Shown here piece by piece: positions 2,789 to 33,531 of a stretch of DNA of 33,531 bases. The position numbers were made by a program, and so were the translations under genes. This stretch comes from Betaproteobacteria bacterium. GTDB lineage: Bacteria > Pseudomonadota > Gammaproteobacteria > Burkholderiales > SG8-41. Every line of letters starts with the position of its first letter. Position 1 is the stretch's first letter. Where the stretch lies: positions 1-33,531 of the forward strand of contig JANXSE010000266.1 of assembly GCA_025356695.1 (NCBI GenBank), written 5' to 3'. Under the pieces are notes generated by a model. It saw only the letters and a list, made by a program, of their open reading frames with translations, searched no databases and was not told the DNA's origin.

Positions 2789-4354
2789 TTAGCGTGAGTT
2801 GTTTGCGGTTGGTGTGGCGGCTGCGATCTGCCGCAACGCGTGTTGATCGATCTTGTTGGTGCCGGCCAGTGGCATGCGTTCGAGGAAAAACACGCGGCGC
2901 GGATGCTGGTAGGCGGGGCCGTGTTCGAGTGCGTAATCCTTCAGTGCCTGTTCCGAGGCTTGTTGCCCGGGCCGCAGTACGACGAACGCATACGGTACCT
3001 GGCCCTTGAGGTCGTGCGCAAACGGCAGTACCACCGCCTGATGCACGGCCGGATGGCGTTCGAGCAGGGAAACGACCTCGATCGGAAAAATGTTTTCGCC
3101 GCCGCAGACGAACATGTCGTCGGTGCGACCGACGAACCAGTAAAAGCCCTCGGCATCGCGGCGGCATATGTCGCCGCTGTGATACCAGCCGTCGCGGATG
3201 CGCTTGGCGGTTTCTTCTGGCATGTTGTGATAACCGAGCAGGATGCCGGGGTTCTTCAGGATCAATTCGCCTTCGTCCGGCGTGGCGCCACCGATGAGTT
3301 TCGCTTCGGTGCTGCGATAGGGCACGCCGATCGAGCCGGGTGGACGCGCCTTGCCGTCGGGATGCGGGCCCAGCGGCACCGGGCCGCCTTCGGTGACGCC
3401 GTAGACAACCAGCGCTTCGGCGTTGGGGAAATCGTGTTTGAGATCGCGCAGAATCTGCAGCGAGGCGGGGGCAGAACCCATCATCACTGTATGCACGGAC
3501 GACACATCTGTTTTGGCGAGCAGGTCTTTGCGCGCGAGCACCATCGATGTCATGGTCGGCACGCCGGAAATCACAGTGCAGCGATAGCGGCCGATCGCAT
3601 CGATGTAACGCTCGACATTGAACTGCGGCAGTAGCGGCAGCATGGCGCCGGCGGTCAGGCCCTGCTTGATCGCGTTGAGCGCATTCTTGTGATAGAGCGG
3701 CGCGGCGACGAGGATGACGTCGTCTGCCGTAGTGCGGCGCGACCAGGCAAGCACAAGGCGGCTCCAGTTCTGGCCGTAGTGCGTCAGCAACACGCCTTTC
3801 GGACGGCCCGTCGAGCCCGAGGTGTAAGGCTGTATCGCCACGGTGTCTGCGGCGGGTTCGATGGCCGTGAATTCGCCATGATCGATGAAAGCGTCGAAGC
3901 CTGCCGCTACGCCGTATTCGGCGACCGTGCTGTCCGCCGGACACAAACGCCGCAACGACGGTTCGGCGAAAATCAGTTTTGCGCCGGCATCTTTGACGAT
4001 ATAGCCGACGGTGTCAGTCGGCAATTTGATATTGATCGGCACCGGCACCACGCCAGCGCGCATGCTGCCGAGCACGGTCGCGACGAACTCGACCCGGTTC
4101 AGCGAAAGTATGGCAATACGATCGCCCGCGACGAGACCGGCCCGCACAAGTCCGCGCGCGACGGCATTGCACAGGGCGTCGAGTGCACGAAAGCTGATTT
4201 CGCGCGGTTTCGTCGCATCGTGCAGATCAACAATCGCGGTGCGGTCCGAACGCGCGTGCACGGCGAACAGCAAGCCGAGATTGCCGGCATGGCCGCGCGC
4301 CGAGGGTTCGGCGATGCCGCCCGCGACCGGCGCCTTGTGTGCGGTCAGGGGCAA
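2789..4354 (-). CDS. AMP-dependent acyl-CoA synthetase (class I adenylate-forming ligase)
   Basis: An adenylate-forming enzyme of about 521 residues that activates a carboxylic acid with ATP and CoA. Motifs appear in order: the AMP/P-loop YTSGSTGRPKGVLLTH near residue 177, YGVTEGG (A5), GWYHSGDICRRDAEGFYWFVG (A7), RTDDMFVCGGENIFP (A8), and GTNKID with the catalytic lysine near the C-terminus (A10). There is no in-frame ATG near the N-terminus. The best start is a TTG at 4354, with AAGGTGG just upstream, overlapping the end of the oxidoreductase by 10 bases; the exact start is uncertain. The long frame continues upstream to 4633, but that part is only the antiphase reading of the oxidoreductase. 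It shares an operon with a thioesterase and UbiX/UbiD, consistent with CoA activation of an organic acid. Confidence 0.92.
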   Translation of the reverse strand: MPLTAHKAPVAGGIAEPSARGHAGNLGLLFAVHARSDRTAIVDLHDATKPREISFRALDALCNAVARGLVRAGLVAGDRIAILSLNRVEFVATVLGSMRAGVVPVPINIKLPTDTVGYIVKDAGAKLIFAEPSLRRLCPADSTVAEYGVAAGFDAFIDHGEFTAIEPAADTVAIQPYTSGSTGRPKGVLLTHYGQNWSRLVLAWSRRTTADDVILVAAPLYHKNALNAIKQGLTAGAMLPLLPQFNVERYIDAIGRYRCTVISGVPTMTSMVLARKDLLAKTDVSSVHTVMMGSAPASLQILRDLKHDFPNAEALVVYGVTEGGPVPLGPHPDGKARPPGSIGVPYRSTEAKLIGGATPDEGELILKNPGILLGYHNMPEETAKRIRDGWYHSGDICRRDAEGFYWFVGRTDDMFVCGGENIFPIEVVSLLERHPAVHQAVVLPFAHDLKGQVPYAFVVLRPGQQASEQALKDYALEHGPAYQHPRRVFFLERMPLAGTNKIDQHALRQIAAATPTANNSR

Positions 4355-5349
4355 ATCACCACCTTGCCGAAGACTTCGCGGTTTTCGATCAGCTTGAGGC
4401 CCTGTCCGGCTTTTTCCAGCGGCAGCACTTCGTCGATCACGGGTTTGATTTTGCCTTCCTGAATCAGGTCCATCAGCGCCTTGAGGTTTTCGTCGTAGAA
4501 ACTGTTGGAGCCGACGATCTGGATTTCGAAGCTCCAGATGTAGCGCAGGTCTTCCTTCGGATCGAAGCCGGCGGTGGCGCCGCAGACGAGGATCTTGCCG
4601 CCGCGCTTGACGCATTTGAGCGACGGCAGCCAAGTGTCGCCGCCGGTGAAGTTGATGACGACGTCAACGCCGCCTTCATAGTTGCGGCGCTGCGGCTTGC
4701 CGAATTTTTCAATCGCCCATTTCGAGAAGTCCGTGTCTTTGTAATTGACGACATGGTCGGCACCGAGATCTTTCAGGCGCTGGATCTTGTCGGCGCTGCT
4801 GGCGCAGGCGATGACTTCGGCGCCCAGCATCTTCGCCAGCAGTACGCAACCGGTGCCGACGCCGCCGCTGGCGCCGAGTACCAGCACCTTGTCGCCGGCC
4901 TTGATTGTGTTGTGCGTGATCATCATGCGGTGCGCAGTGCCGTAGGCGACCGGCAGCGAGGCGGCCTGCTCGAAGCTGACGTTGTCGGGCATGCGGATCA
5001 ACTGGCCGGCGGAAACCAGACATTTCTCAGCGAGACCGCCGTGCATCATTTCACCCATCAGGCCGACCTTGGGGTTGAGCGGGTTGACCAGCACGCGGTC
5101 GCCCTTTTTCCAGCCGCTGACACCGGCGCCGACTTCGAGAATTTCACCGGCGATATCGAGGCCGATGATCATCGGCATCGGCACCTTGATGCCGGGCATG
5201 CCGCGTACCGTGAAGACGTCGTGGTAGTTGAACGAGGTGGCGCCGACGCGGATGACCACATGCCCTTCCTTTGCCACGGGATCCGGAAAGTCGGTCACGT
5301 ATTCGAGATCGTCGATCGTGCCGTGCTGTTTCAATACAACTGCCTTCAT
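4345..5349 (-). CDS. Zinc-lacking MDR-family NAD(P)H oxidoreductase (quinone reductase/alcohol dehydrogenase-like)
   Basis: A 334-residue medium-chain dehydrogenase/reductase. The N-terminal GroES-like half contains FNYHDVFTVRG, where zinc-dependent alcohol dehydrogenases carry the catalytic-zinc Cys. The four-Cys structural zinc lobe is also absent, so this is probably a zinc-free quinone or enone reductase. The Rossmann half has the nucleotide-binding motif VLVLGASGGVGTG, then GADHVVNYKD and the IDEVLPLEKAGQGLKLIENR C-terminal region. The ATG at 5349 has CGGAGAA 6-8 bases upstream. Its stop overlaps the presumed TTG start of the acyl-CoA ligase, and it lies 40 bases after the GntR gene, so it is the first structural gene of the operon. 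Whether it acts on a quinone, an enoyl compound or an alcohol cannot be decided from sequence. Confidence 0.93.
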   Translation of the reverse strand: MKAVVLKQHGTIDDLEYVTDFPDPVAKEGHVVIRVGATSFNYHDVFTVRGMPGIKVPMPMIIGLDIAGEILEVGAGVSGWKKGDRVLVNPLNPKVGLMGEMMHGGLAEKCLVSAGQLIRMPDNVSFEQAASLPVAYGTAHRMMITHNTIKAGDKVLVLGASGGVGTGCVLLAKMLGAEVIACASSADKIQRLKDLGADHVVNYKDTDFSKWAIEKFGKPQRRNYEGGVDVVINFTGGDTWLPSLKCVKRGGKILVCGATAGFDPKEDLRYIWSFEIQIVGSNSFYDENLKALMDLIQEGKIKPVIDEVLPLEKAGQGLKLIENREVFGKVVICP

Positions 5350-5389
5350 GGTGTTCTCCGTTGAATGATTTCTGGTGTCTAAATGCGTT

Positions 5390-6109
5390 TCAATCGCCGC
5401 TGAGGGCGAGGTTCATGATGCTGTGGCTGGACATGACCGCGGACAACACCATGCTGCGCGCGGCTTCGATCTGTTCGCGCGCAAGGCGTTCTGCACTGTC
5501 GCCGTTGCCGCGCACCAGCGCCTTGAGTAGGGCGCGTTGTTCGATTTGCATTTCGCCCGAGCGGTTGCGCAGGCCGAGGCCAAGATGCAGCAGCCGCGTC
5601 ATCTGGTCGTGCAGTTGCGCAATCATCGACGACAGTCGCACGTTGCCAGTGGTTTCGGCGATGGCGACGTGGAACTCTTTGTTGGCGTCGAGAAAGCTGG
5701 CGATGCTGCGCGCGTCGTGCATCTGGTAACCGTTGCCGGTGGCGGCCTCGAGTGCGCGGGCACGGCGCGTGTCGATTTTTCCGGCGGCCATGCGCGCCGC
5801 CAGTGGTTCGAGCATCAGACGCAGTTCGAAAATGTCCTGGATGTCTTTGAGCGTGACCGGGCTGATGCGATAACCGCGGCGCGGGATTGCGCGCACCAGG
5901 CCGTCATGAGCGAGGCGGATCAGCGCCATACGCACGGGCGCTTTGCCGAGCCGGTATTGCAGGCAGAGTTGCGGTTCGGAGACTTCGGTGCCGGGGGCGA
6001 GCACGCAGGTGATCACATCGTGCTTGATGCGTTCGTAGGCGCGGTCGGTGAGCAGCGGTATCGGCGCATCGGCACTGCGGGGGCGGCTTTGTGGGGGCGG
6101 AATGGCCAC
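5390..6109 (-). CDS. GntR-family transcriptional regulator (FadR/FCD subfamily)
   Basis: A 239-residue regulator. The N-terminal winged helix-turn-helix (residues about 20-90) reads LTDRAYERIKHDVITCVLAPG, then KAPVRMALIRLAHDGLVRAIPRRGYRISP, the usual GntR DNA-binding signature. The C-terminal half is all-helical and contains DIFELRLMLEPLAARMAA, typical of the FCD ligand-binding domain of regulators that respond to carboxylic acids. The only sensible start is GTG at 6109. It is the first gene behind a strong minus-strand promoter (6134-6162), with a short leader of about 18 bases and only a weak ribosome binding site. As first gene of the catabolic operon it is probably an autoregulating repressor released by an acid substrate or intermediate; that regulatory logic is inferred from position. 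Confidence 0.92.
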   Translation of the reverse strand: MAIPPPQSRPRSADAPIPLLTDRAYERIKHDVITCVLAPGTEVSEPQLCLQYRLGKAPVRMALIRLAHDGLVRAIPRRGYRISPVTLKDIQDIFELRLMLEPLAARMAAGKIDTRRARALEAATGNGYQMHDARSIASFLDANKEFHVAIAETTGNVRLSSMIAQLHDQMTRLLHLGLGLRNRSGEMQIEQRALLKALVRGNGDSAERLAREQIEAARSMVLSAVMSSHSIMNLALSGD

Positions 6110-6133
6110 GGCGATCGTCCGGTTGGGCTTGCG

Positions 6134-6162
6134 ATACTATGAGCAGCCCCGTGACATGTCAA
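6134..6162 (-). promoter_or_regulatory. Sigma-70 promoter for the GntR-led operon
   Basis: On the minus strand a perfect -35 TTGACA (6157-6162) is separated by exactly 17 bases from a -10 TAGTAT (6134-6139). The predicted transcript starts near 6127, about 18 bases before the GTG of the GntR gene. It is the best-looking promoter in the left half of the window and no other comparable one is seen inside the operon. Confidence 0.75.
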
Positions 6163-6263
6163 CGTTGTGGTAACAATCTCCGCACGCGAAAGTTACCCGG
6201 AGAAGTTGCAGAGTGAAGCGGGATGCGCCGGTCGCCGTGCAGGCGGAGTCCGGCGTTTGCGCG

Positions 6264-6404
6264 TTACTTGAGGAAAATGACCGCGGGGAAGGTTCCTGCA
6301 GCCAACGCAAGCACCAGCCACTCAAGGTTGTTGCGCCGGAGCCAGCCGGTGAAATGCAGAATCAGAATGACGATCGCTACTGCGTAAAAGGCGTAAAACC
6401 CCAT
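6264..6404 (-). CDS. Small membrane protein, 46 residues
   Basis: A short open frame starting with ATG at 6404, preceded by a strong GGAGG ribosome binding site five bases upstream. The product begins MGFYAFYAVAIVILILHF, has a short charged turn GWLRRNNLEW, and ends in a second hydrophobic segment LVLALAAGTFPAVIFLK. It is therefore predicted as a two-pass (hairpin) inner-membrane peptide with the WLRRNN loop on the cytoplasmic side. A possible -10 TATGAT lies at 6467-6472. I do not recognise the family. The near-consensus Shine-Dalgarno, clean hydrophobicity pattern and lack of an overlapping gene argue it is real; absence of homologues would weaken this. Confidence 0.6.
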   Translation of the reverse strand: MGFYAFYAVAIVILILHFTGWLRRNNLEWLVLALAAGTFPAVIFLK

Positions 6405-6618
6405 AATTGCCTCCGTCTGATCGGGTGCCGCGCCGCTCAGTTTAATCGTTGATTGGATCAGTAATAATCATACATCAGAACAGCACAAATAAAAAGTTTT
6501 GGGGCGGTGTTTCCGCATGATTACGGGCACTTTTCGGTGTTTTGAGGGGGCGACCGGCACGGTCCGCGCCGAATAGCGTTTATGATCACCTTTTAAGCTC
6601 CGATTGCACAGGCACGAT
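6405..6618. other. Divergent intergenic region between the small membrane protein and the GDPD gene
   Basis: This A/T-richer stretch separates two divergent genes. It holds a candidate minus-strand -10 TATGAT (6467-6472, with a poor TTTTTA -35 at 6490-6495). On the plus strand there is another TATGAT (6581-6586) with no recognisable -35 before the GDPD gene. No terminator or RNA gene is seen. Confidence 0.4.
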
Positions 6619-7278
6619 ATGCTGGTTCTAGCGCACCGTGGATATCACGCAGGGCTTCCGGAGAACACGCTGGCCGCGTTTGAAGCGGCGCAGCGCCTCG
6701 GCGTCGACGGCATTGAAACCGACGTGCGTCTGAGTGCGGACGGCAAACCCGTCATCATGCATGACCGCGTCACGTCCGCCGGGCGCGCCGTGTCGGCGAT
6801 CACGCACCGCGAAATTGAAGACGATTGCGGCCATGCGGTGCCGCTGCTGGCGGAGATTCTCGATGTGGCCCCGGCGCTGCTGTGGAACATCGAGATCAAG
6901 CTGCCGGAGGCATGGCCGGTTGCCGCGCCAATACTCAAACAGTTTCAGAAAACGCGACGCATCATGGTCAGTTCGTTCCGGCATGACGTGGTTTATCAAT
7001 GCGCGTCGGAACTGGAGGTGGACTGCGGTCTGTTGATCGCCAGCCGGCCGCTGGATGTCGGTGCCATCATGGCGGCGTGCGCGGCGCGGCCGCGCATCCA
7101 AAGCATCGTCTGGGACTACAACATTATCGACGTAGAAATCCTGCAGACCGTCGTAGCGCGCGGCTGGAATAACTATGTCTATGGCGCGCATACACCGGAA
7201 GAACATGCGTATTGCGGGACGCTGAACCTGCGCGGACTGATCACCGATCACCCGCAGCGGGCAGGGTGCGGCCTGTGA
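6619..7278 (+). CDS. ugpQ: Glycerophosphodiester phosphodiesterase
   Basis: A 219-residue GDPD-family TIM-barrel enzyme that hydrolyses glycerophosphodiesters to sn-glycerol 3-phosphate and an alcohol. The catalytic region is clear at the N-terminus: [18 protein letters not shown] supplies the first His/Arg and Glu-Asn, and [19 protein letters not shown] supplies the metal-binding Glu/Asp and the second His. WNIEIKLPE gives the later acidic metal site. No signal peptide is present, so it is a cytoplasmic UgpQ-like form. The ATG at 6619 (AGG seven bases upstream) is preferred over a TTG at 6604. It overlaps the glycerol kinase start by four bases, so the two gene products probably work together in glycerol/G3P supply. 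The symbol rests on size and location class, not on a direct comparison. Confidence 0.9.
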
Positions 7279-22593: not shown

Positions 22594-23629
<1,036 letters not shown>

Positions 23630-23739: not shown

Positions 23740-26700
23740 ATGGTTTTTGCTTTCCGAAAATTCGTGTGTGCCACTGTTGCGTGGCTCATGCTGTTGACCC
23801 CGGTGTGCGGACAAACGCAGCCCGTGGCCGCACGCTTTGACGTTAGCGGATTTTCGGTTTTGGGCGCGCCGCAGATTGCGGCCGAAGAATTTTCAAGAAT
23901 TGTTGCGCCCTTCATCGGACGACAAAAGACCTCTGCAGATGTGCAACGAGCGCAGCAGGCCGTGCAACAGGCGTATTTCGATCTGGGGCATTGTTCGACT
24001 CAGGTAACGGTTCCCCTGTCGGAGCCTGAGTTCGGGGTCGTCACTTTCCGGCTCGTGCAATCGGCAACGCCCCTCAGCAGGGACTGCGCACCCACCATCG
24101 TCCTCGACCAAAAACGTGCCGCGCCGCCGGTGCCGGTTTCGCCTGGTGAAGTTGCCACGCGACCGCTGGCGGACGTGACGGGGGCTCTGGCCGATGTTGC
24201 GCAGCCGGAACAAAAAGTCGAGATTGCCCGTGCGACCACGACTAAGCCGCTGCAGGACGGTCCCGTCGCAAAGCCTCTGCAAGACCGTCCACCGGTGGCA
24301 CCAGTGATTGCGTCATCGCCAAACGCCGTGATTGCGCCGAAGCCGGCGGTGATTGCGATTGCACCGAAACCCGAGCCTGTGCCGAAAGTTGAAGTTGTGC
24401 CGCCGCGGCCGGAACCCGTTGCCAAGGCGGAACCGGTAGTCGCGCCGAAATTGGCGGAGGTCGCAATTGTACCGAAACCTGAACCGGCGCCTGCGTCGAA
24501 AGTTGAAGTGGTGTCCACTCAACCGCAGCCCGTTGCCAAGGTGGAACCGGTTGTCGAGCCGAAGCCGACAGTAATTGCGGTTACACCAAAACCCGAACCA
24601 ACGCCCGTGCCGAAAGTTGAGGTTGCGCCGCCGCAGCCGGAACTCATCGCCAAGGTAGAGCCAGTAATCGAACCGAAGCCGGTGGTGGTTGCAATTGCAC
24701 CGAAACCTGAGGTGGCACCTGCGCCAAAAGTTGAAGTCGTGCCGTCGCCGCAGGAACCCGTTGCCAAGGTGGAGCCGGTAGTCGAACCGAAGCCAGCGGT
24801 GATTGCACTTGCACCGAAATCTGAGTCGGCGCTGAAACTTGAAGCCGCACCTCCGCAGCCGGAACCAGTAGCCAGAGTTGAACCGGTAGTCGAGCCGAAG
24901 CCGGCGGTGGTTGCAATTGCACCGAAACCTGAGGTGGCACCTGCGCCGAAAGTTGAAGTCGCGCCGCCGCAGCCGGAACCCGTCGCCAAGGTGGAGCCGG
25001 TAGTCGATCCGAAGCCAGCGGTGGTTGCAATTGCTCCGAAACCTGAGCTAGCGCCTGCTCCGAGAGTTGAAGTTGTGCCGCCGCAGCCGGAACCCGTTGC
25101 AAAGGTGGAGCCGGTGGTCGAGCCGAAGCCGGCCGTGGTTGCCATTGCACCGAAACCTGATCCGGCGTCTACACCCAAACTAGAACCGGCCGCGAAGATT
25201 GCACCTGCGCCGGCTGCCGCCACAGCGCTGCAGTCTGAAGTCGTGGTGCGACCGCTGGCAGATGCGGGTGCTGCGTCCCAATCAACGGAGACCGCTTCGT
25301 CGCCGAAGCCACCCATTGAAAAAGCGCCCGTGCGTCCGTTGCAGGACCGTACCGAAACGCCGGTGGCGCGAACAGAGATTGCAGCCCCAGTAATGAGCAC
25401 ACCTTTGGTTGAGCCGAAGCCGAAAACGTCCGTTGCAGAAGCGGCCGCGCAGACGCCGTTGGCGAAACCCGAAGCCAAGACCGCTTTGGCGCCGGGCCAA
25501 AAGGCACTGGCAGTTCCGGCGCCGGTCTATGTGCAGGCACCTGCCAACGCACCGGAACAACCGGTTGCGCAAACTGAGGACGAGGCGGCGGCAGCGGCAT
25601 TGCGTTTTGATATTGCGCGTTACCTTGTTGTCGGCAACACGATGCTCAAGCCGGATCAGATTCGCGGTGTTTTGCGCAGCTACACGGGCAGGCAGAAGGA
25701 TTTTGCCGACGTGCAGCGCGCGCTTGAGGCGCTTCAATCAGCCTATTCGGAAAGAGGGTTCAGTGCCGTGCAGGTTACGCTGCCTGAGCAGGAACTTGAG
25801 CGGGGCGAAGTAAAGTTTGAGGTGGTTGAATCGAAGATCGGCAAGATCGATGTGCAGGGCAATGAACTGCATTCCGAGCGGAACGTACGCAACAGCCTGC
25901 CGACGCTGCGCGAAGGTGTGACGCCGAACGCGCTTGATATCGCGCGTAATCTCAAACTGGTCAATGAAAACGCGAGCAAACAGACGCAGGTTTCGTTGCG
26001 CGCGGGCAGCCAGGAAGGCGAAGTGGATGCCACGATCAAGCTGATCGAGGATGATCCCGTCAAGTATTCGGTAAGCATGGACAACACGGGCACCTACGCT
26101 TCAGGAAAATACCGTGTCGGTTTTGGCTACCAGAATTCGAACATGTTCGACCGTGATCACACGCTGACGCTGCAATACATCACCAGCCCCGAGCACCCGA
26201 GTGCGGTGACCGTGTTCGGCTTTGGCTACCGCGTGCCGGTGTTTTCGTCGGGGAATTCGGTTGACGTTATCGCAGGCTATTCGGACGTGACATCCGGAAC
26301 CGTCGGCCAATTGTTTAACGTTGCGGGTGCCGGCACGGTCGTGGGTCTTCGTTTCAACCACAATTTCGACCGCGTGGAGAATTACGAGCACAAGATCACC
26401 TACGCGCTCGACTACAAGGCATTTCAAAGCAACGTGACTTTTGTCGGCAGCACCACGCCGCTGGTGCCGGACATCACGGTGCATCCGGTCAGTGTTACCT
26501 ATGCCGGTACCTGGCGCGGTACGACGAGTCAACTGGACTTCTACGCGAGTTATTCGCAGAACGTGTTCCCTGGCGGCAATGATGGCGCGAACAGCGACTT
26601 TCAGGAACGCAAGGTTGGCTACCCCAATGCGGCGCGGATAGAGGCGAAGGCCGGTTACAGCATCCTCCGCGGTGGCGCCAATTACGTTTATCAGATGTGG

Positions 26701-27153
26701 GGCGAATGGCAGGCGCGTACCGCGCTGAATATCCAGCAGACGGATGCCGCCTTGATCGCGGGCGAGCAGTTTGGCGCCGGCGGTGCCGAGTCGGTGCGCG
26801 GTTTCGACGAGCGCGCAGTGTCAAACGACCGTGGCTGGCGCGCCAACTTCGAGTTATATACGCCGGATATTGCGGGTGACCTTGGATGGACCGGTGGCAG
26901 GCTGAAAGTGCTGGCGTTTTACGATACCGCGGACCTGACCCGCAATCGTCGCCAACCCGGTGAGGGCGGGGGCACGACGATTTCCAGTTATGGACTCGGT
27001 TTGCGCGTCCAGACCAAAAACGTGTTCAGCATGAAGGTCGATTACGCGCAGGTTTACCACGACGGTGAAATCGAAAATGGCACGCCGCGCCTGATCAAAG
27101 ACGGGCGCCGCAATTCGAATACCGTGCACGCATCGATGGCATGGGTTTTTTAG
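23740..27153 (+). CDS. TpsB-type two-partner secretion transporter (ShlB/FhaC/HecB family) with duplicated POTRA and long repeat linker
   Basis: A 1,137-residue outer-membrane transporter, about twice the 550-600 residues usual for TpsB. A signal peptide (FVCATVAWLMLLTPVCG) is followed by a POTRA_2-like domain at about 31-109. Residues 110-620 are Pro/Ala/Lys/Glu/Val-rich and include seven tandem 38-residue repeats. A second POTRA_2-like domain lies at about 621-700 and a third POTRA at 701-780 (KIGKIDVQGNELHSERNVR). The barrel runs to the end, with the family VRGF motif at residues 1019-1022 and terminal Phe (ASMAWVF). The first two POTRAs share RFD, GRQK..ADVQRA and QVT.P, so they look like a duplication. 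The ATG at 23740 (GGGAAA upstream) is preferred to a TTG at 23695. The partner TpsA follows at 390 bp. POTRAs should bind the TPS domain in the periplasm; the linker's role is unknown. Confidence 0.93.
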   Translation: MVFAFRKFVCATVAWLMLLTPVCGQTQPVAARFDVSGFSVLGAPQIAAEEFSRIVAPFIGRQKTSADVQRAQQAVQQAYFDLGHCSTQVTVPLSEPEFGVVTFRLVQSATPLSRDCAPTIVLDQKRAAPPVPVSPGEVATRPLADVTGALADVAQPEQKVEIARATTTKPLQDGPVAKPLQDRPPVAPVIASSPNAVIAPKPAVIAIAPKPEPVPKVEVVPPRPEPVAKAEPVVAPKLAEVAIVPKPEPAPASKVEVVSTQPQPVAKVEPVVEPKPTVIAVTPKPEPTPVPKVEVAPPQPELIAKVEPVIEPKPVVVAIAPKPEVAPAPKVEVVPSPQEPVAKVEPVVEPKPAVIALAPKSESALKLEAAPPQPEPVARVEPVVEPKPAVVAIAPKPEVAPAPKVEVAPPQPEPVAKVEPVVDPKPAVVAIAPKPELAPAPRVEVVPPQPEPVAKVEPVVEPKPAVVAIAPKPDPASTPKLEPAAKIAPAPAAATALQSEVVVRPLADAGAASQSTETASSPKPPIEKAPVRPLQDRTETPVARTEIAAPVMSTPLVEPKPKTSVAEAAAQTPLAKPEAKTALAPGQKALAVPAPVYVQAPANAPEQPVAQTEDEAAAAALRFDIARYLVVGNTMLKPDQIRGVLRSYTGRQKDFADVQRALEALQSAYSERGFSAVQVTLPEQELERGEVKFEVVESKIGKIDVQGNELHSERNVRNSLPTLREGVTPNALDIARNLKLVNENASKQTQVSLRAGSQEGEVDATIKLIEDDPVKYSVSMDNTGTYASGKYRVGFGYQNSNMFDRDHTLTLQYITSPEHPSAVTVFGFGYRVPVFSSGNSVDVIAGYSDVTSGTVGQLFNVAGAGTVVGLRFNHNFDRVENYEHKITYALDYKAFQSNVTFVGSTTPLVPDITVHPVSVTYAGTWRGTTSQLDFYASYSQNVFPGGNDGANSDFQERKVGYPNAARIEAKAGYSILRGGANYVYQMWGEWQARTALNIQQTDAALIAGEQFGAGGAESVRGFDERAVSNDRGWRANFELYTPDIAGDLGWTGGRLKVLAFYDTADLTRNRRQPGEGGGTTISSYGLGLRVQTKNVFSMKVDYAQVYHDGEIENGTPRLIKDGRRNSNTVHASMAWVF
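24385..25176 (+). repeat. Seven-unit tandem repeat (114 bp, 38 residues) inside the tpsB linker
   Basis: Units begin at 24385, 24499, 24613, 24727, 24835, 24949 and 25063. All are 114 bp except the fourth, which is 108 bp. The consensus unit starts KVEVVPPQPEPVAKVEPVV and continues EPKPAVVAIAPKPEPAPAP. Later units (fifth to seventh) are the most alike at the DNA level. An eighth, degenerate start (KLEPAAK) follows at 25177, and a partial half-unit precedes the first. Pro at every second or third position with alternating Lys/Glu suggests an extended, stiff polypeptide. Confidence 0.95.
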
Positions 27154-27543
27154 CCTTGTTTGACTGGATTTTTCGAGCTTAAGTATCTGAAGATAATTGT
27201 TAAATTATCGATCTTTTGATCTTAGGCATAGCGGGCGGTCGCAAGTGTGATTTTGTTCACTTGTCGGGTCTGGTTGATTGGCCTAGCTTAGGCGCAGATT
27301 GGCGGTGGTACGTCTCTTGCGACAGTTCAGTCGGTGGGGCGCGACAATCGTGATTAGGCGCAATGAAGATAATAAAAATCAATAATTTCAGGTGGTTGTA
27401 GTACTGGCTGTTTAGGGTTTCGCGGTCCGGGTTAAGTGCCGGAAATTTGCGCTGACCTTTTGCGACAGTAAATTGAGCTTTTTGGTGCGCAATTTGAGGC
27501 GGCCATGCGTGTAAACGCACGAGGCGTCGGGAGTTTTAGGCTT
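27154..27543. promoter_or_regulatory. tpsB-tpsA intergenic region with direct and inverted repeats
   Basis: This 390-bp stretch has no gene I can support. It contains the inverted repeat GATAATT (27192-27198), loop GTTA, AATTATC (27203-27209). TTAGGCGCA occurs at 27288-27296 and again at 27354-27362. TTGCGACAGT occurs at 27317-27326 and again at 27460-27469, with another GCGACA near 27341. A small hairpin with a GTAA tetraloop, TGCGT/ACGCA (27506-27519), lies in the probable leader of tpsA. No clear -35/-10 pair and no strong terminator after tpsB are seen. The repeats look like regulator sites, which would allow tpsA its own promoter. Confidence 0.45.
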
Positions 27544-30500
27544 ATGAAGAATTCGAACCGGGTCAAGCGCAAAGCGTCACTCAGGCGCAAGGTCGTAACG
27601 CTCGCAGTGGCGTCGTGTTTTGCCACCGAACTGGCGCACGCCAATCCGACCGGTCCGACCGTCATCAGCGGCCAGGTCTCGATGACCACCAACGGCAACC
27701 TGCTGCAGATCACGAATTCCCCCGGCTCGATCATCAACTGGCAGGGCTTTTCGATCGGCGCCAGTGAAATTACCCGTTTCCTTCAGCAATCGGCATCCAG
27801 CACTGTTCTCAACCGCGTCGTCGGCGCGAATCCCTCGGTCATCCTCGGCGCATTGCAGTCGAACGGCCGTGTGCTTCTAATTAACGGCAACGGCATAGTT
27901 TTTGGCGCCGGTTCGACCATCGATACGGCAGGCCTCGTCGCGTCCACGCTCAAACTTTCGGATGCGGATTTTCTTGCCGGACGGATGAAATTTACTGATG
28001 GTGCCGGGGCGGGCAACGTTGTTAACGACGGCAGGATCACAACGGCGACGGGTGGTTTCGTCTACCTCGTGGCGCCGAACATTCAAAACAGCGGCATCAT
28101 ACGCAGTGACGGCGGCGAAATCATACTGGCCGCGGGCAAGAGCGTTGATATCGTCAATCCGAATTCGCCAGACGTTCGCGTCACGGTGACTGCGCCTGAC
28201 GGCCAGGCGCTCAACGTCGGACAGATCATTGCCAGCAAGATCGGCATCTATGGTGCGTTGATCAAGCAGGCGGGCGTTGTCAACGCCAATATGGCAGTGC
28301 GTGGCGAGAATGGCAAGATCGTTTTCAAGGCAACCAAAGATGTGACGCTTGCCGCAGGCAGCAGCACGACTGCGAACGGCCCGACGGGCGGTTCGATCAC
28401 GATTCAATCTGATTCCGGTAAAGCAACGGTTGCAGGCACCGTTGAGGCCAATGGCACACAGGGCAAGGGCGGCACGGTTTCCATTGCGGCGCCCCAAGGG
28501 GTTTCGGTTGAGGCAACCGGACGTGTTAGTGCCAATGGTAGCGAAGGCGGCAGTGTCAATCTGGCTTCCGCTGGCGGTGCTGTCAATGTTGCCGGCACTA
28601 TCACGGCGAATTCAACGTCTGGGCGCGCGGGCGAAATCGCAATTACGGCCGCCACGTCAAGCGGCCTTGCTTCCTCTGGACAACTCAGTGCGAGCGGCGG
28701 ACTCGGCGGTGGTTCAGTTTCAATCAGGGGTGGCAGTAACGTAACGCTTGAACCGGGCAGCAAAGTCGCAGTGAACGGTGCGGCCGGCGGCAATGTATCG
28801 GTTCAATCGGATCAAGGTACAGTTCTCGCACAAGGTACGATTGACGCCTCGTCGGCCGAAGGCGCCGGTGGCAGCGTGCAGATTAATGCGTTGTCGGATA
28901 TTACGCTGGATGACGGCAGCCGAATTCTGGTTGGCGGAAGCGTAGGCGGTGAGGCGAAGATTCAATCGACCGAAGGCACCTTGCTCGCGTCCGGTTTGAT
29001 TGATGGGCAAGGCAGCGGCGGACCCGGCGGATTGGTCTGGTTGCTCGCGCCGCGCGTCGGTTTGATTCGTGAAGCCTTAGTTAATGTGTCCGGCATGACC
29101 GGCGGCGGTACTGTTTTGGTTGGTGGCGATTATCACGGGGGTAACCCGGATATTCAGAACGCGTTCCGCACTTACTTCGGATCGGGAGCTTCTGTAATTG
29201 CGGATGCGCTTCAGTCCGGCGCTGGCGGCAAGGTTGTCGTTTGGTCGGATGACATTACGCGTTATTACGGCAGCATAAGCGCACGCGGCGGTGCCCAATC
29301 CGGCAACGGCGGGTTTGTTGAGGTTTCTGGCGCGCGCTTGCTTGACTTTAATGGCGGCGTCGATTTGGGGGCTGTGCGTGGAATAACGGGTACATTGTTA
29401 CTTGATCCTCTGAATATCACCATTGACAGTGCCGGTGCAAACGGAAATCTGGTTGGTGGCGGTGGAACAACGGACGGCAATGCAAATACCTACGCATTCT
29501 CGGAAGATCCTGCCGCTACCAGCAATATAAGGCCGGCATTTCTTGACGGCTTGAACGCGACCGTGACGCTTCAGGCCAAGAACAATATTACGTTTGCAGC
29601 GGGTGCAGCTGGCACGGTCACGTTGACCACCGCTGGTGCAGGATTCATTGCGCAAGCGGGCAATAACATCACATTTGGCGCTGGCAGCGGCATTACGACC
29701 AATGGTGGTGTGATCACACTGACTGCCAATGACACCAGTACTGGCAGCGTACCGACGGGGATCGGCAGCATCGTCGGGAGTGCGGCGTTAAGTTCGGCCG
29801 GATCGAATGCTACAAACTCGGCGGGTGGTGCGATCACGCTTGCGATCGGCGCGGGCACTGGTACGATTTCGGTTGGAACAATTGATACGCATGGTGGTGG
29901 AAGCGCGGCTGCGACGACAGGCGGCGCGGGGGGCTTGGTATCAGTTACAACAGTTGATGGTGCGATTACTACTGGCACGATCACAACCACGGGCGGTGCG
30001 GCGGGTAGTGGGGCTGCAACTGCGAAGACCGGCGGCGATGCGGGTGGTGTGACCATTCAAGTGACAGCACCAGCCGCTGCACGCTTGATTACTGTCGGAG
30101 ATATCACGGCAGTCGGCGGAGTTGGTGGTGCATCTGCGACTGGTGTTGTCGGCGGCACCGGGGGCAAGGGTGGATCCATTCTGATTACGGCGAGTGCCGG
30201 ATCTGGAGGTTCGATATCGGCCGGCTTAATCAATGCGACAGGCGGGGCAGGTGGAGCCAATGCGATCGCTGCGACTGATGTCGGTGGCGCAGGTGGTTTG
30301 GCGGGGACAATTACGCTTACGACTACGGGGGCGGCGCAAACCGCTTCCGCCTCTGGAGCATTAACCGCAGCAGGTGGAGCCGGCGGTGTGTCCGGGGCGT
30401 CTGCAACAAATTCGAGCGGAGGAAATGGCAGCGCAATCTCCATTGTTTCGAATGGCGCGACACTGAATGGCGCGAACGCCAAAGGTGGTGTGGCGGGAAC

Positions 30501-33500
30501 TGGCGGCACCGGGGGTGTCGCGGGAAGCGGCGCAAACATTTCGATCAACGGCGGAACAGGTGGAATAGCCCTCAGTACGGCAGCTGTTGCCACCGATGCA
30601 AGCCACAACATCACGCTCAGCACAACAGGGGCGGCGACTCAGGCGGGTGCTGCGGCGCTGACTGCAGGGGGGCTTGAGCTGCTGGGTGTAGGCGGCACGT
30701 ATACGCTGACGAACGCGGGTAACCAGATCGCGACGCTGGCGGGTAATACGGGCACGGTGTCGTTCAAGGACAACGGGACGGGCTTTGCGATCGGGACGGT
30801 GAATACGGTTGGTCTGACGACGAGCGGGAACACGACGCTGAATACGAGCGGGCATATCTCGCAGACGCAGGCGATCACGGCGGCTGGGCTTGAGCTGCTC
30901 AATGGTGATTTCGATCTGAGGGGTGCGAACAATGCGGTGACGACACTGGCGGCGAACGCCGGGCCGTTGAGTTTCCAGGACAACGCCGGGTTTGCAATCG
31001 GCACGGTGAATGCGACCAATGGCATTACTACGAGCGCGAATATCCAACTGATCAGCACCGGGACGGTGACGCAGACACAGCCGATCACGACGGTAGCAGT
31101 CGTGCGGTTCTCCGGCGCGGGCGGTGTTTACAACCTGACGGGTGCGAACAACGCGGTCGGGTTCGTGGTGGCGGACACGGGGACGGTGAAGTTGCTGGAT
31201 AACGCGGGATTTGTGGTCGGCGGAATTCCGGTCAACGGATTAACCACCTACACCACAAGCGGCAATACGACGTTCAATACGACCGGCACGGTGACGCAGA
31301 TAACGCCGATCAACGCGTCGGGTCTTGAATTGCTGGGTGCAGGCGGTACGTATACGCTGAATACGCAGAACAACGTGGTGACGACGCTGGCGGGGAACAC
31401 GGGGACGGTGAAGTTCCGGGACAACGGTGGCTTCGCGGTGGGTACTGTGAACACGGTTGGCTTGACGAGCAGCGGGAACACGACGTTGAGTTCGACGGGG
31501 ACGGTGACGCAGTCGCAGGCGATCACGGCGGCGGGTCTGGAATTGCTGGGGGCGGCAGGCGTATTTACGCTGAATACGCAAAACAACGTGGTATCGACAC
31601 TCGCCGCCAATACCGGGACGGTAAACTTCAATAATTCCGGCGCTCTGGCGGTTGGCGCCGTGAATACGGCGGGCATCACTACGAGTGGTGGAGATGTCAC
31701 TCTAAGCGCGAACAATACCGTTACCGTGAACAATAACATTGCCGCGGGCGCTGGCAAGGTCAATATTACGACGACTGGTGCAAGCAGCAATATTGATGGC
31801 GGTGGCGGCACGATATCATCCTCGAACGGAGCAACCGGGATCTCGCTGAATGCCGGCGGTGGTATTGGTATCGGGGCGGCGATTAATACGAATCTGGCGG
31901 GCGGCGGCAAATTAACGCTTACCACGAATGGCAACGCTGCGGCGGGCGATATGACGCTCGTCGAAGCGGGGCCTCTCAACTCGGGCGGCTCGTTCAGTGC
32001 GGCGCCGAGTGTTCTCGGTACGGGAGCTCATACCCTGACGTTTACCACGACCGCGGGGCCGTGGACCGTCAGTGCGACGAACCCGATTGTCGAATCGGGA
32101 CAAAACGTAACCTTGATTACCTCGGCGGGCGATATCGTATTGAGCGATAACGTTACGCTCGGCACCGGTACATTGCGCCTGGTTTCGGCCGGCAAGGTCA
32201 ATCAGACGGCGGGTAACATCACTGCAGCCGCAATGGGGGTGCGCGCTGCCAATGACGTTGATCTGATCGTTGGTTCAAACCATGTGGCGACGTTCGCGGC
32301 TAATAACACCGGTTCCACCAACCATATTTCCTATACGGATACGGGTGCATTGGGGCTCGGCACGGTTGGCGCGTCCGCAGGATTCACCAGCACGAGTGGT
32401 GTCAGCACCACGAACGGCAACGTCACTTTGCAGTCGGGCGCTGCCATGTCAGTGCCGGGCAATATCTCGGCAGGCACCGGAACGGTCAGTCTGACGACGA
32501 CGGCCGGCAATATCGATTTCAGCGGTGCGACAACCCTGACCGCCGCTGCGGTTACCTTGAATGCCGCCGCTGCGATTACCAGCGGCACCGCAGGAACCGA
32601 CATCGATACCAGCGGCAGCAATGGCACGATCGATTTGACGGCAGGAACCAGCATCGGCGCGAGCGGTAACTCGCTCGAAGTCAATATGGGTAGCGGCAAT
32701 CTGAAACTGACGGCGACAACCGGTGATGTGTACGTTGAAAAGTCCGCAGGCAGTTTGTCGTTCTCGAAGCTGACCACAGTCAGTCTTGCCGGCACCGGCA
32801 AGGCGCTGCAACTGTCCACGACCAACGGCAGCATCAACATTGATAGCTACGCCGGCTTTAACGCCAACACCACGAACGATAATGTTTCGGTGCTTGCGAA
32901 CGGTGCGGCGAGCGATTTGACGGTTACGATCGCGCAGCCTTCGATGTCCGGCACGATTTCCGGAAACGCAGGTCGCAACATCGCGCTGAACGTGGCAAAC
33001 GCGATCAACACGAGCGGCAATGTAAACCTTACTGCAGGCGGCACGATCAGCGACAATTCGGCCGTTGGTACGATTGTTGGCGCATTGCTGACAACCAGTT
33101 CGGTCGGTGGAACTTCGCTGACCGGTGCAAATACGGTCAGTAGCTTTAACGCGACGAATTCGGGGGGCGGCACGGCATCGCTGACCAACACGACGTCAAC
33201 GCTGAACGTGACGGGTGTTAATCAGTCGGGTGGCGGCGGCATCATCATCAATAACACCGGCAATCTGACAGTCAGTGGCGGAGTGTCTGCAGGTGCGACG
33301 CCGGCCAATATCCAACTCATGGCAACGGGTGCGACCGCAGATGCTGCGCTTAACGGCGCAGTCGGTGGCGGCTCTGGGACTGTTTCGGTCAGTGCCGGCC
33401 GTAACGTAACGATCAATACCGGCGGCGATATTACAACCTCCGGAGCGGTGGTATTGAACGCAGGTCAGACTGCGGTTACCGGAACGATCACCGAAGCCGG

Positions 33501-33531
33501 TACAGGCAAGATCCTTACAGCCTCGGGGTTG
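27544..33531 (+). CDS. TpsA-type filamentous-haemagglutinin-like exoprotein (3' end outside window)
   Basis: An open frame of 1,996 codons that runs off the right edge. The basic N-terminus MKNSNRVKRKASLRRK and hydrophobic VVTLAVASCFATELAHA form a signal peptide with probable cleavage after AHA. The TPS (haemagg_act) domain follows, with NLLQITNSPGSIINWQGFSI and ASSTVLNRVVGANPSVILGA; the usual NPNG motif appears as LLINGNGIVFG. The rest is Gly/Ser/Thr/Asn-rich beta-helix sequence, first with GGxVxI-type strands, then a Gly-rich array (about 29878-30555), then five 71-residue units (30670-31740). Almost no Cys is present, as usual for secreted beta-helices. The ATG at 27544 has AGG six bases upstream. 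It is the probable cargo of the TpsB upstream: an adhesin or other large surface/secreted protein. No C-terminal effector domain is visible. Confidence 0.93.
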   Translation, partial: MKNSNRVKRKASLRRKVVTLAVASCFATELAHANPTGPTVISGQVSMTTNGNLLQITNSPGSIINWQGFSIGASEITRFLQQSASSTVLNRVVGANPSVILGALQSNGRVLLINGNGIVFGAGSTIDTAGLVASTLKLSDADFLAGRMKFTDGAGAGNVVNDGRITTATGGFVYLVAPNIQNSGIIRSDGGEIILAAGKSVDIVNPNSPDVRVTVTAPDGQALNVGQIIASKIGIYGALIKQAGVVNANMAVRGENGKIVFKATKDVTLAAGSSTTANGPTGGSITIQSDSGKATVAGTVEANGTQGKGGTVSIAAPQGVSVEATGRVSANGSEGGSVNLASAGGAVNVAGTITANSTSGRAGEIAITAATSSGLASSGQLSASGGLGGGSVSIRGGSNVTLEPGSKVAVNGAAGGNVSVQSDQGTVLAQGTIDASSAEGAGGSVQINALSDITLDDGSRILVGGSVGGEAKIQSTEGTLLASGLIDGQGSGGPGGLVWLLAPRVGLIREALVNVSGMTGGGTVLVGGDYHGGNPDIQNAFRTYFGSGASVIADALQSGAGGKVVVWSDDITRYYGSISARGGAQSGNGGFVEVSGARLLDFNGGVDLGAVRGITGTLLLDPLNITIDSAGANGNLVGGGGTTDGNANTYAFSEDPAATSNIRPAFLDGLNATVTLQAKNNITFAAGAAGTVTLTTAGAGFIAQAGNNITFGAGSGITTNGGVITLTANDTSTGSVPTGIGSIVGSAALSSAGSNATNSAGGAITLAIGAGTGTISVGTIDTHGGGSAAATTGGAGGLVSVTTVDGAITTGTITTTGGAAGSGAATAKTGGDAGGVTIQVTAPAAARLITVGDITAVGGVGGASATGVVGGTGGKGGSILITASAGSGGSISAGLINATGGAGGANAIAATDVGGAGGLAGTITLTTTGAAQTASASGALTAAGGAGGVSGASATNSSGGNGSAISIVSNGATLNGANAKGGVAGTGGTGGVAGSGANISINGGTGGIALSTAAVATDASHNITLSTTGAATQAGAAALTAGGLELLGVGGTYTLTNAGNQIATLAGNTGTVSFKDNGTGFAIGTVNTVGLTTSGNTTLNTSGHISQTQAITAAGLELLNGDFDLRGANNAVTTLAANAGPLSFQDNAGFAIGTVNATNGITTSANIQLISTGTVTQTQPITTVAVVRFSGAGGVYNLTGANNAVGFVVADTGTVKLLDNAGFVVGGIPVNGLTTYTTSGNTTFNTTGTVTQITPINASGLELLGAGGTYTLNTQNNVVTTLAGNTGTVKFRDNGGFAVGTVNTVGLTSSGNTTLSSTGTVTQSQAITAAGLELLGAAGVFTLNTQNNVVSTLAANTGTVNFNNSGALAVGAVNTAGITTSGGDVTLSANNTVTVNNNIAAGAGKVNITTTGASSNIDGGGGTISSSNGATGISLNAGGGIGIGAAINTNLAGGGKLTLTTNGNAAAGDMTLVEAGPLNSGGSFSAAPSVLGTGAHTLTFTTTAGPWTVSATNPIVESGQNVTLITSAGDIVLSDNVTLGTGTLRLVSAGKVNQTAGNITAAAMGVRAANDVDLIVGSNHVATFAANNTGSTNHISYTDTGALGLGTVGASAGFTSTSGVSTTNGNVTLQSGAAMSVPGNISAGTGTVSLTTTAGNIDFSGATTLTAAAVTLNAAAAITSGTAGTDIDTSGSNGTIDLTAGTSIGASGNSLEVNMGSGNLKLTATTGDVYVEKSAGSLSFSKLTTVSLAGTGKALQLSTTNGSINIDSYAGFNANTTNDNVSVLANGAASDLTVTIAQPSMSGTISGNAGRNIALNVANAINTSGNVNLTAGGTISDNSAVGTIVGALLTTSSVGGTSLTGANTVSSFNATNSGGGTASLTNTTSTLNVTGVNQSGGGGIIINNTGNLTVSGGVSAGATPANIQLMATGATADAALNGAVGGGSGTVSVSAGRNVTINTGGDITTSGAVVLNAGQTAVTGTITEAGTGKILTASGL
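29878..30555 (+). repeat. Gly-rich imperfect repeats in tpsA
   Basis: Six imperfect units of about 35-44 residues share the pattern x-I/L-xTxGGAGGxxGA, then xxGGxGGxxGxIxITxxG. Unit starts lie near 29878, 29977, 30100, 30226, 30358 and 30475. Each gives a Gly-rich loop followed by a beta strand, as in a right-handed beta-helix with long glycine turns. Confidence 0.8.
30670..31740 (+). repeat. Five-unit tandem repeat (about 71 residues) in tpsA
   Basis: Units start near 30670, 30886, 31099, 31321 and 31534, 213-222 bp apart. The pattern is GLELLGAGGTYTLNTQNNVV, TTLAGNTGTVKFRDNGGFAV, GTVNTVGLTTSGNTTLNTTG and TVTQTQAITA. Units one, four and five are most alike; units two and three are diverged, the third having lost the GLELL start. 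Typical of large TpsA stalks. Confidence 0.9.

Follow-up and report, generated by a model that had tools for sequence, protein, structure and literature searches.

The window analysed here, 33,531 nucleotides of contig JANXSE010000266.1 from a betaproteobacterial assembly (GCA_025356695.1), holds a gene, tpsB, for a genuine outer-membrane transporter of two-partner secretion (TPS, type Vb; ShlB/FhaC/HecB family), and this transporter carries an additional POTRA domain at its N-terminus (N-POTRA), separated from the usual pair by a linker of about 500 residues. TpsB proteins are taught as minimal translocators of two POTRAs and a barrel. The transporter itself is ordinary; what is unusual is the N-terminal module and its leash, and because the layout recurs in a little-known group of relatives it seems to be a true variation on a known machine and not an error of sequencing. 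The role that we favour, at a probability of roughly 45%, is that of a tethered adaptor that may catch the exported partner, TpsA. A very long unfolded TpsA has to be located, held open and steered through a periplasm that offers no energy; how this is achieved is the wider question, and a tethered, chemically marked POTRA in a natural TpsB would provide a clean test that is separable from the pore. The author of an earlier note on this DNA knew of no TPS system with such a layout, and we likewise found no description of one in the literature searched, in which PMC5422565, PMC7644211, PMC4490367 and PMC8151025 were represented by parts of their text and subscription literature lay mostly outside.

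An extra POTRA on an ordinary TpsB

The open reading frame of tpsB runs through 1137 residues to a single stop at its end. The profile search that the earlier note proposed placed Pfam ShlB (PF03865) at residues 765-1089 (3.8e-21; 76.3 bits against a cut-off of 22.7) and POTRA_2 (PF08479) ahead of the barrel in two stretches (1.6e-23; best 623-697), and Omp85 also matches. The VRGY/F motif of loop L6, described for TpsB in PMC5422565 (articles are cited here and below for the available parts of their text), is present as VRGF, with V1019, R1020 and G1021 invariant among the 16 sequences compared. By Foldseek the predicted fold matches FhaC and CdiB (6wim, 6.5e-27; 4qky, 9.4e-23; TM-score by target 0.75 each), the closest solved structures by sequence are CdiB proteins and the TpsB4 POTRA, and the open reading frame downstream encodes the TPS domain of a TpsA (PF05860, 4.1e-25).

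Ahead of this core, residues ~30-109 align without gaps to residues ~620-699 and are identical at 32 of 80 positions (BLOSUM62 score 153, against 25.3 ± 4.7 and a maximum of 55 in 5000 shuffles), which bears out the duplicated POTRA-like segments first seen by eye. Structure prediction gives the N-terminal segment the beta-alpha-alpha-beta-beta order of the POTRA fold, and the best structural matches of this model are the POTRAs of CdiB, TpsB4 and FhaC; on the model, then, the segment is a POTRA. It resembles POTRA1, not POTRA2, and raises the POTRA count to three, where exactly two is the family norm and not a requirement. The AlphaFold2 (AF2) model has no helix from the signal peptide to POTRA1 outside N-POTRA, and none between the linker and POTRA1. 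A lipobox in the signal peptide was considered and rejected, none being visible by eye.

N-POTRAs of the window kind, here termed type A, contain exactly two cysteines, spaced 31 residues apart, in all 48 copies collected, and 46 of 47 type A proteins have no further cysteine from N-POTRA onward. Cysteine is absent from POTRA1 in 82 of 82 proteins and from all nine entries scripted as type B, that is, as an extra POTRA of another kind (eight of these are true type B; the core match of the ninth, P0076, is a fragment). Because the pair is invariant in type A while POTRA1 has no cysteine, a disulfide between Cys85 and Cys116 is likely. CdiB structures show two cysteines, conserved in all CdiB and some TpsB proteins, that link POTRA1 to the end of the linker (PMC7644211), whereas in the window TpsB both cysteines fall inside the extra POTRA or at its C-terminal edge.

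The window protein shares POTRA1, POTRA2, a 16-strand barrel, VRGF and a downstream TpsA with FhaC (Bordetella) and CdiB (4qky/4ql0, 6wim, 6wil), and, as in TamA and BamA, more than two POTRAs precede its Omp85 barrel. The POTRAs of TamA and BamA are directly consecutive, whereas the N-POTRA of the window TpsB is set apart by its linker, and its barrel matches the ShlB profile. The POTRAs of those two proteins number three or five (PMC4104836). In FhaC and CdiB a plug helix comes first, followed by 20-30 residues of linker and then POTRA1, the linker of FhaC lying in the POTRA2 groove (PMC5422565, PMC7644211); ahead of POTRA1 the window TpsB has an extra POTRA and a leash of ~500 residues. Coordinates are collected in Table 1.

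Table 1. Features of the tpsB locus, in positions of the window
Feature	Position	Strand	Basis
thioredoxin-reductase-like gene, divergent from tpsB and separate from the transporter	22594..23553	-	shared neighbour
tpsB, 1137 residues: signal peptide, N-POTRA, linker, POTRA1, POTRA2, barrel	23740..27153	+	open reading frame, Pfam, AF2
signal peptide, residues 1 to ~24, likely cut after VCG	23740..23811	+	by eye; AF2 helix 2-19
extra N-terminal POTRA, type A, residues 31-109	23830..24066	+	Pfam, alignment, AF2, Foldseek matches, tree
Cys85 (LGHC), conserved, immediately before strand beta2	23992..23994	+	alignment, AF2
Cys116 (RDC), conserved, nine residues beyond strand beta3	24085..24087	+	alignment, AF2
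Pro/Ala/Val-rich linker, residues 117-618, predicted disordered	24088..25593	+	composition, AF2
[KR]PL[QA]D motifs at residues 141, 169, 178, upstream of repeat array	24160..24285	+	pattern scan
tandem repeat array in linker, 114-bp (38-residue) unit, 7.4 copies	24336..25167	+	repeat search
[KR]PL[QA]D motifs at residues 504, 532, downstream of repeat array	25249..25347	+	pattern scan
POTRA1, residues 621-697, without cysteine	25600..25830	+	Pfam, AF2
POTRA2, residues 699-772	25834..26055	+	AF2 secondary structure; alignment to CdiB 6wim
Omp85/TpsB beta-barrel, residues 773-1137, VRGF at 1019-1022	26056..27150	+	Pfam, AF2, Foldseek
partner tpsA, continuing past the window end; TPS secretion domain at residues 45-278	27505..33531	+	PF05860

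Relatives, ancestry and linker

Protein searches with residues 1-115, with residues 612-1137 and with a short-linker relative gave 17, 82 and 8 proteins, respectively, and a genome scan gave 80 loci (P and L numbers denote proteins and loci). The arrangement is not confined to the window: type A was found by script in 47 of 83 TpsB proteins (the window protein and 82 search matches; P0085-P0087 came later and stand outside the counts), with 48 copies in total, one of which (P0051) is cut at its start, and type B in 8 of the 83. The 47/83 proportion is biased upwards, since the first two of these searches took proteins of 0.55-1.75 times 1137 residues and ordinary TpsBs of 550-600 residues fell outside; some proteins counted without N-POTRA are cut short, such as P0021, the core of which is the core of L002, a locus that has the domain. 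P0003 has two type A N-POTRAs in series (residues 31-112 and 462-543), each followed by its own linker.

Type A lies on the TpsB frame at five of the 80 genome loci, in all five within one open frame. The five genomes belong to one family-level group, in which type A occurs in 8 of 74 genomes (E <= 1e-26); one of the eight (G298) has a decayed type A remnant beside the same thioredoxin-reductase-like gene, and two (L090, L091) are apparently cut by contig ends inside the linker. Even samples gave type A in 2 of 399 genomes of the order, both in that family, and in 1 of 369 of the class, each genome contributing 12 or 13 scored candidates, so that rare copies could escape. No relatives were found in the viral contigs searched.

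In a tree built over 89 columns from 68 hand-chosen POTRAs (36 copies of POTRA1, 24 of the 48 type A copies and 8 of type B), where the branches at P0081 are long, type A formed one clade apart from POTRA1 with support of 100/100. Because of this separation the window N-POTRA is placed in an old clade of its own and is not a fresh copy of POTRA1; a recent duplication, which the term "duplicated POTRA" in the earlier note could imply, is rejected, while the likeness to POTRA1 stands. Type B copies were scattered among POTRA1 sequences in several places (five changes, at least three forced by starred branches), and for this reason the extra POTRA of other TpsBs was probably acquired separately. 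A FastTree tree of 146 cores, which has many open forks and was made without P0002, P0083, P0084, late-starting core matches and 14 distant loci, implies at least 11 changes of N-terminal state (A, B or other, rows of unknown state excluded); the module seems, on this count, to be readily gained, lost or exchanged.

The linker is as long and as Pro-rich as first described (503 residues by the alignment cut; P 22.5%, A 17.9%, V 16.5%), and AlphaFold2 gave it no secondary structure and a predicted local distance difference test score (pLDDT) mostly <50. The exact repeat number within it is subject to assembly error. Among the 47 type A proteins linker length varies from 43 to 726 residues (median 122), with 726 in P0007 against 122 in P0028 at 87% core identity and 682 in P0005 against 537 in P0006 at 96%; Pro content is 15-37% among the linkers listed in the length comparison. 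A fixed ruler length is rejected on this range and on the first of these pairs. A simple polymer estimate puts the end-to-end distance at ~21 nm for 506 residues and 5 nm for 43, with contour lengths of 157-172 nm and 13-15 nm, respectively. The periplasm is ~20-25 nm wide, and the shortest linker, given its contour length, would barely span it when fully stretched. The earlier note had suggested that the tether, if extended, could bring the domain near Sec at the inner membrane; a decisive role for tether length is not supported, since linker length is not conserved, and such reach is possible for the window protein and is not a shared requirement of the family. TonB also has a periplasmic Pro-rich linker, extended and flexible, with Pro alternating with Glu/Lys; the likeness is one of general description, and TonB is an inner-membrane protein whereas TpsB is in the outer membrane.

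Five [KR]PL[QA]D motifs flank the repeat array of the window, against 0.0015 expected in linker shuffles, a lenient control since the pattern was written after the sequence had been viewed. Where the linker has >=240 residues, 13 of 15 proteins contain at least one copy of a looser pattern, against 2 of 32 where it is shorter, and this is a possible short binding motif. A second pattern, [LVI][AV][QK]A, occurs within the 50 residues before POTRA1 in 23 of 47 type A proteins (2.8 in shuffles) and in the TpsB frames of 13 of 75 loci without type A (2.5 in shuffles), a partial signal.

One type A N-POTRA, with its own cysteine pair 31 residues apart, is joined to a C39 peptidase and not to a TpsB (P0087, 381 residues, in a cluster of 10 member sequences). 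The peptidase part has a sub-cut-off likeness to FapD and FilB, and the fusion could reflect a shared ligand or be a chimaera. No match to this part was found in any frame of L001-L091 or the window, and no N-POTRA/C39 fusion was found beyond P0087. A C39 relative is present in 4 of the 74 genomes of the type A family; in three of the four neighbourhoods (5.1, 10.7 and 16 kb) a phmmer search near the C39 genes gave no match to TpsB, TpsA or N-POTRA. A link between C39 and tpsB in this family was not borne out, as the C39 genes looked at do not lie beside tpsB.

Possible roles of the N-POTRA

If N-POTRA is a tethered adaptor, DsbA-type oxidation would join Cys85 to Cys116 and staple the domain, and the linker would serve as a flexible leash, letting it explore a wide region of the periplasm about the pore. 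Weak binding to TpsA, either as an extended chain or through its TPS domain, as by other TpsB POTRAs, would raise the local substrate concentration ("fly-casting"), and TpsA would then be passed to POTRA1-POTRA2 and on to the barrel. In relatives with short linkers N-POTRA would probably act beside POTRA1 and POTRA2, with no need to reach the inner membrane. The POTRAs of FhaC bind the TPS domain through fast, micromolar contacts, mainly in the POTRA2 groove (PMC5422565).

Several observations weigh against capture. That groove belongs to the barrel-proximal POTRA2 of FhaC and not to POTRA1 (PMC5422565), whereas the likeness of N-POTRA is to POTRA1, and the more N-terminal POTRAs of Omp85 proteins are seen as sites for partner proteins (Heinz and Lithgow, PMC4104836). 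At 75 of the 80 loci the TpsB frame has no N-POTRA (L044 among them is cut at its 5' end), and because such homologues exist, the domain is, judging by their sequences, dispensable for TPS secretion as such. AMIN, FimV_N or TPR modules in the same slot of relatives suggest docking or localisation over capture. Cys116 lies where the confidence of the model drops (block 111-120, pLDDT 71, and lower in another prediction), and CdiB already provides a precedent for a disulfide at the POTRA of a TpsB (PMC7644211).

The exchange of modules is also why an anchoring role ranks second, as a possible though rather doubtful alternative. N-POTRA would then be a leashed anchor or targeting domain, held to peptidoglycan or an envelope protein and placing the transporter, much as AMIN does in PilQ. 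AMIN occupies the N-terminal slot of P0059 and P0060, FimV_N that of P0066 and P0071, and TPR that of P0077-P0079, from which the peptidoglycan or other-partner alternative of the earlier note gains weight while staying below capture. Leashes of 43-65 residues would reach the cell wall at its usual position and hardly the inner membrane. POTRAs are known to bind polypeptide and not glycan, however, the TPR modules point to protein contacts, and AMIN and FimV_N each occur in just 2 of 82 proteins, FimV_N being no more than a putative binder of peptidoglycan. PilQ, a secretin, resembles the window TpsB in being a pore of the outer membrane that bears an accessory periplasmic domain at its N-terminus, without being a homologue; the anchor function is established for PilQ, the AMIN domains of which attach to peptidoglycan and position the pilus machine (PMC5285504). 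Across these relatives the exchange suggests that the periplasmic N-terminus of TpsB is an adaptor slot. LysM and other wall-binding domains are listed for other Omp85 proteins (PMC4104836); the N-terminal parts of L043 and L050 looked LysM-like by eye, and this candidate was rejected when Pfam at E up to 1 gave nothing.

A gate or plug, with N-POTRA folding onto POTRA2 or under the barrel in place of the H1 helix and linker of FhaC and CdiB, is quite improbable. It would account for the lack of a helix between linker and POTRA1 in the AF2 model of a protein whose known counterparts have one, but short relatives run almost directly from signal peptide to POTRA1 (by eye) and seemingly have no plug to replace, and CdiB without H1 and linker still secretes (PMC7644211); these two points make it the less likely. 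A leash of 500-700 residues would also hinge badly, and the pore is probably too narrow to admit a POTRA. Display of N-POTRA outside the cell, on a linker running through the barrel in the way that the N-terminus of H1 reaches the surface in FhaC, is less probable again: a long linker could pass through the pore, but the route for export would then be obstructed, and linkers of 43 residues would leave little slack. Two fused genes or a misassembled repeat, which the earlier note named as the way its proposal could fail, have a negligible chance and are rejected for the architecture, for although the linker is a tandem repeat inside which two related assemblies (L090, L091) seem to end, the same order stands in 47 of 83 proteins and, as one open frame, at 5 of 80 loci, four of these five sharing the upstream thioredoxin-reductase-like neighbour.

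Capture by a tethered adaptor can be widened to a joint reading that we consider unlikely as a whole, in which a portable, disulfide-stapled N-POTRA, on a leash free to vary in length, would catch the giant unfolded TpsA remotely, prevent its folding or degradation and reel it to the barrel, the same domain would have moved onto a C39 peptidase, and the TpsB N-terminus would be an exchangeable slot for POTRA, AMIN, FimV_N or TPR. Were this so, the C39 peptidase with N-POTRA would be brought to the same TpsA cargo, and the exchangeable modules would form a layer of type V secretion for which the literature searched held no description.

Neighbouring genes and other loci

A thioredoxin-reductase-like gene lies near tpsB at 25 of the 80 loci (a weaker match at L052 excluded), namely at 4 of the 5 with type A and at 21 without. 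Since this neighbour occurs with and without type A, tpsB often appears to stand at an old shared position where its N-terminal domain varies. Most tpsA genes run off the fetched loci.

Other arrangements were seen among the relatives. At L019 two tpsB frames (3198-4835 and 5024-6634) stand in tandem ahead of one tpsA, and at L037 (7533-9887) a single open frame encodes a TpsB and behind it, at residues 664-784, a match to Hsp70, which is a fusion or an assembly error. P0083 (1504 residues) and P0084 (1454 residues) combine TPS, POTRA_2 and ShlB in one polypeptide and are TpsA-TpsB fusions. The metagenome bins of L016, L018, L030 and L069 are labelled Bordetella parapertussis or Klebsiella pneumoniae, and these names look doubtful, for the first three because their TpsBs group with those of uncultured Betaproteobacteria (L069 is not in the tree).

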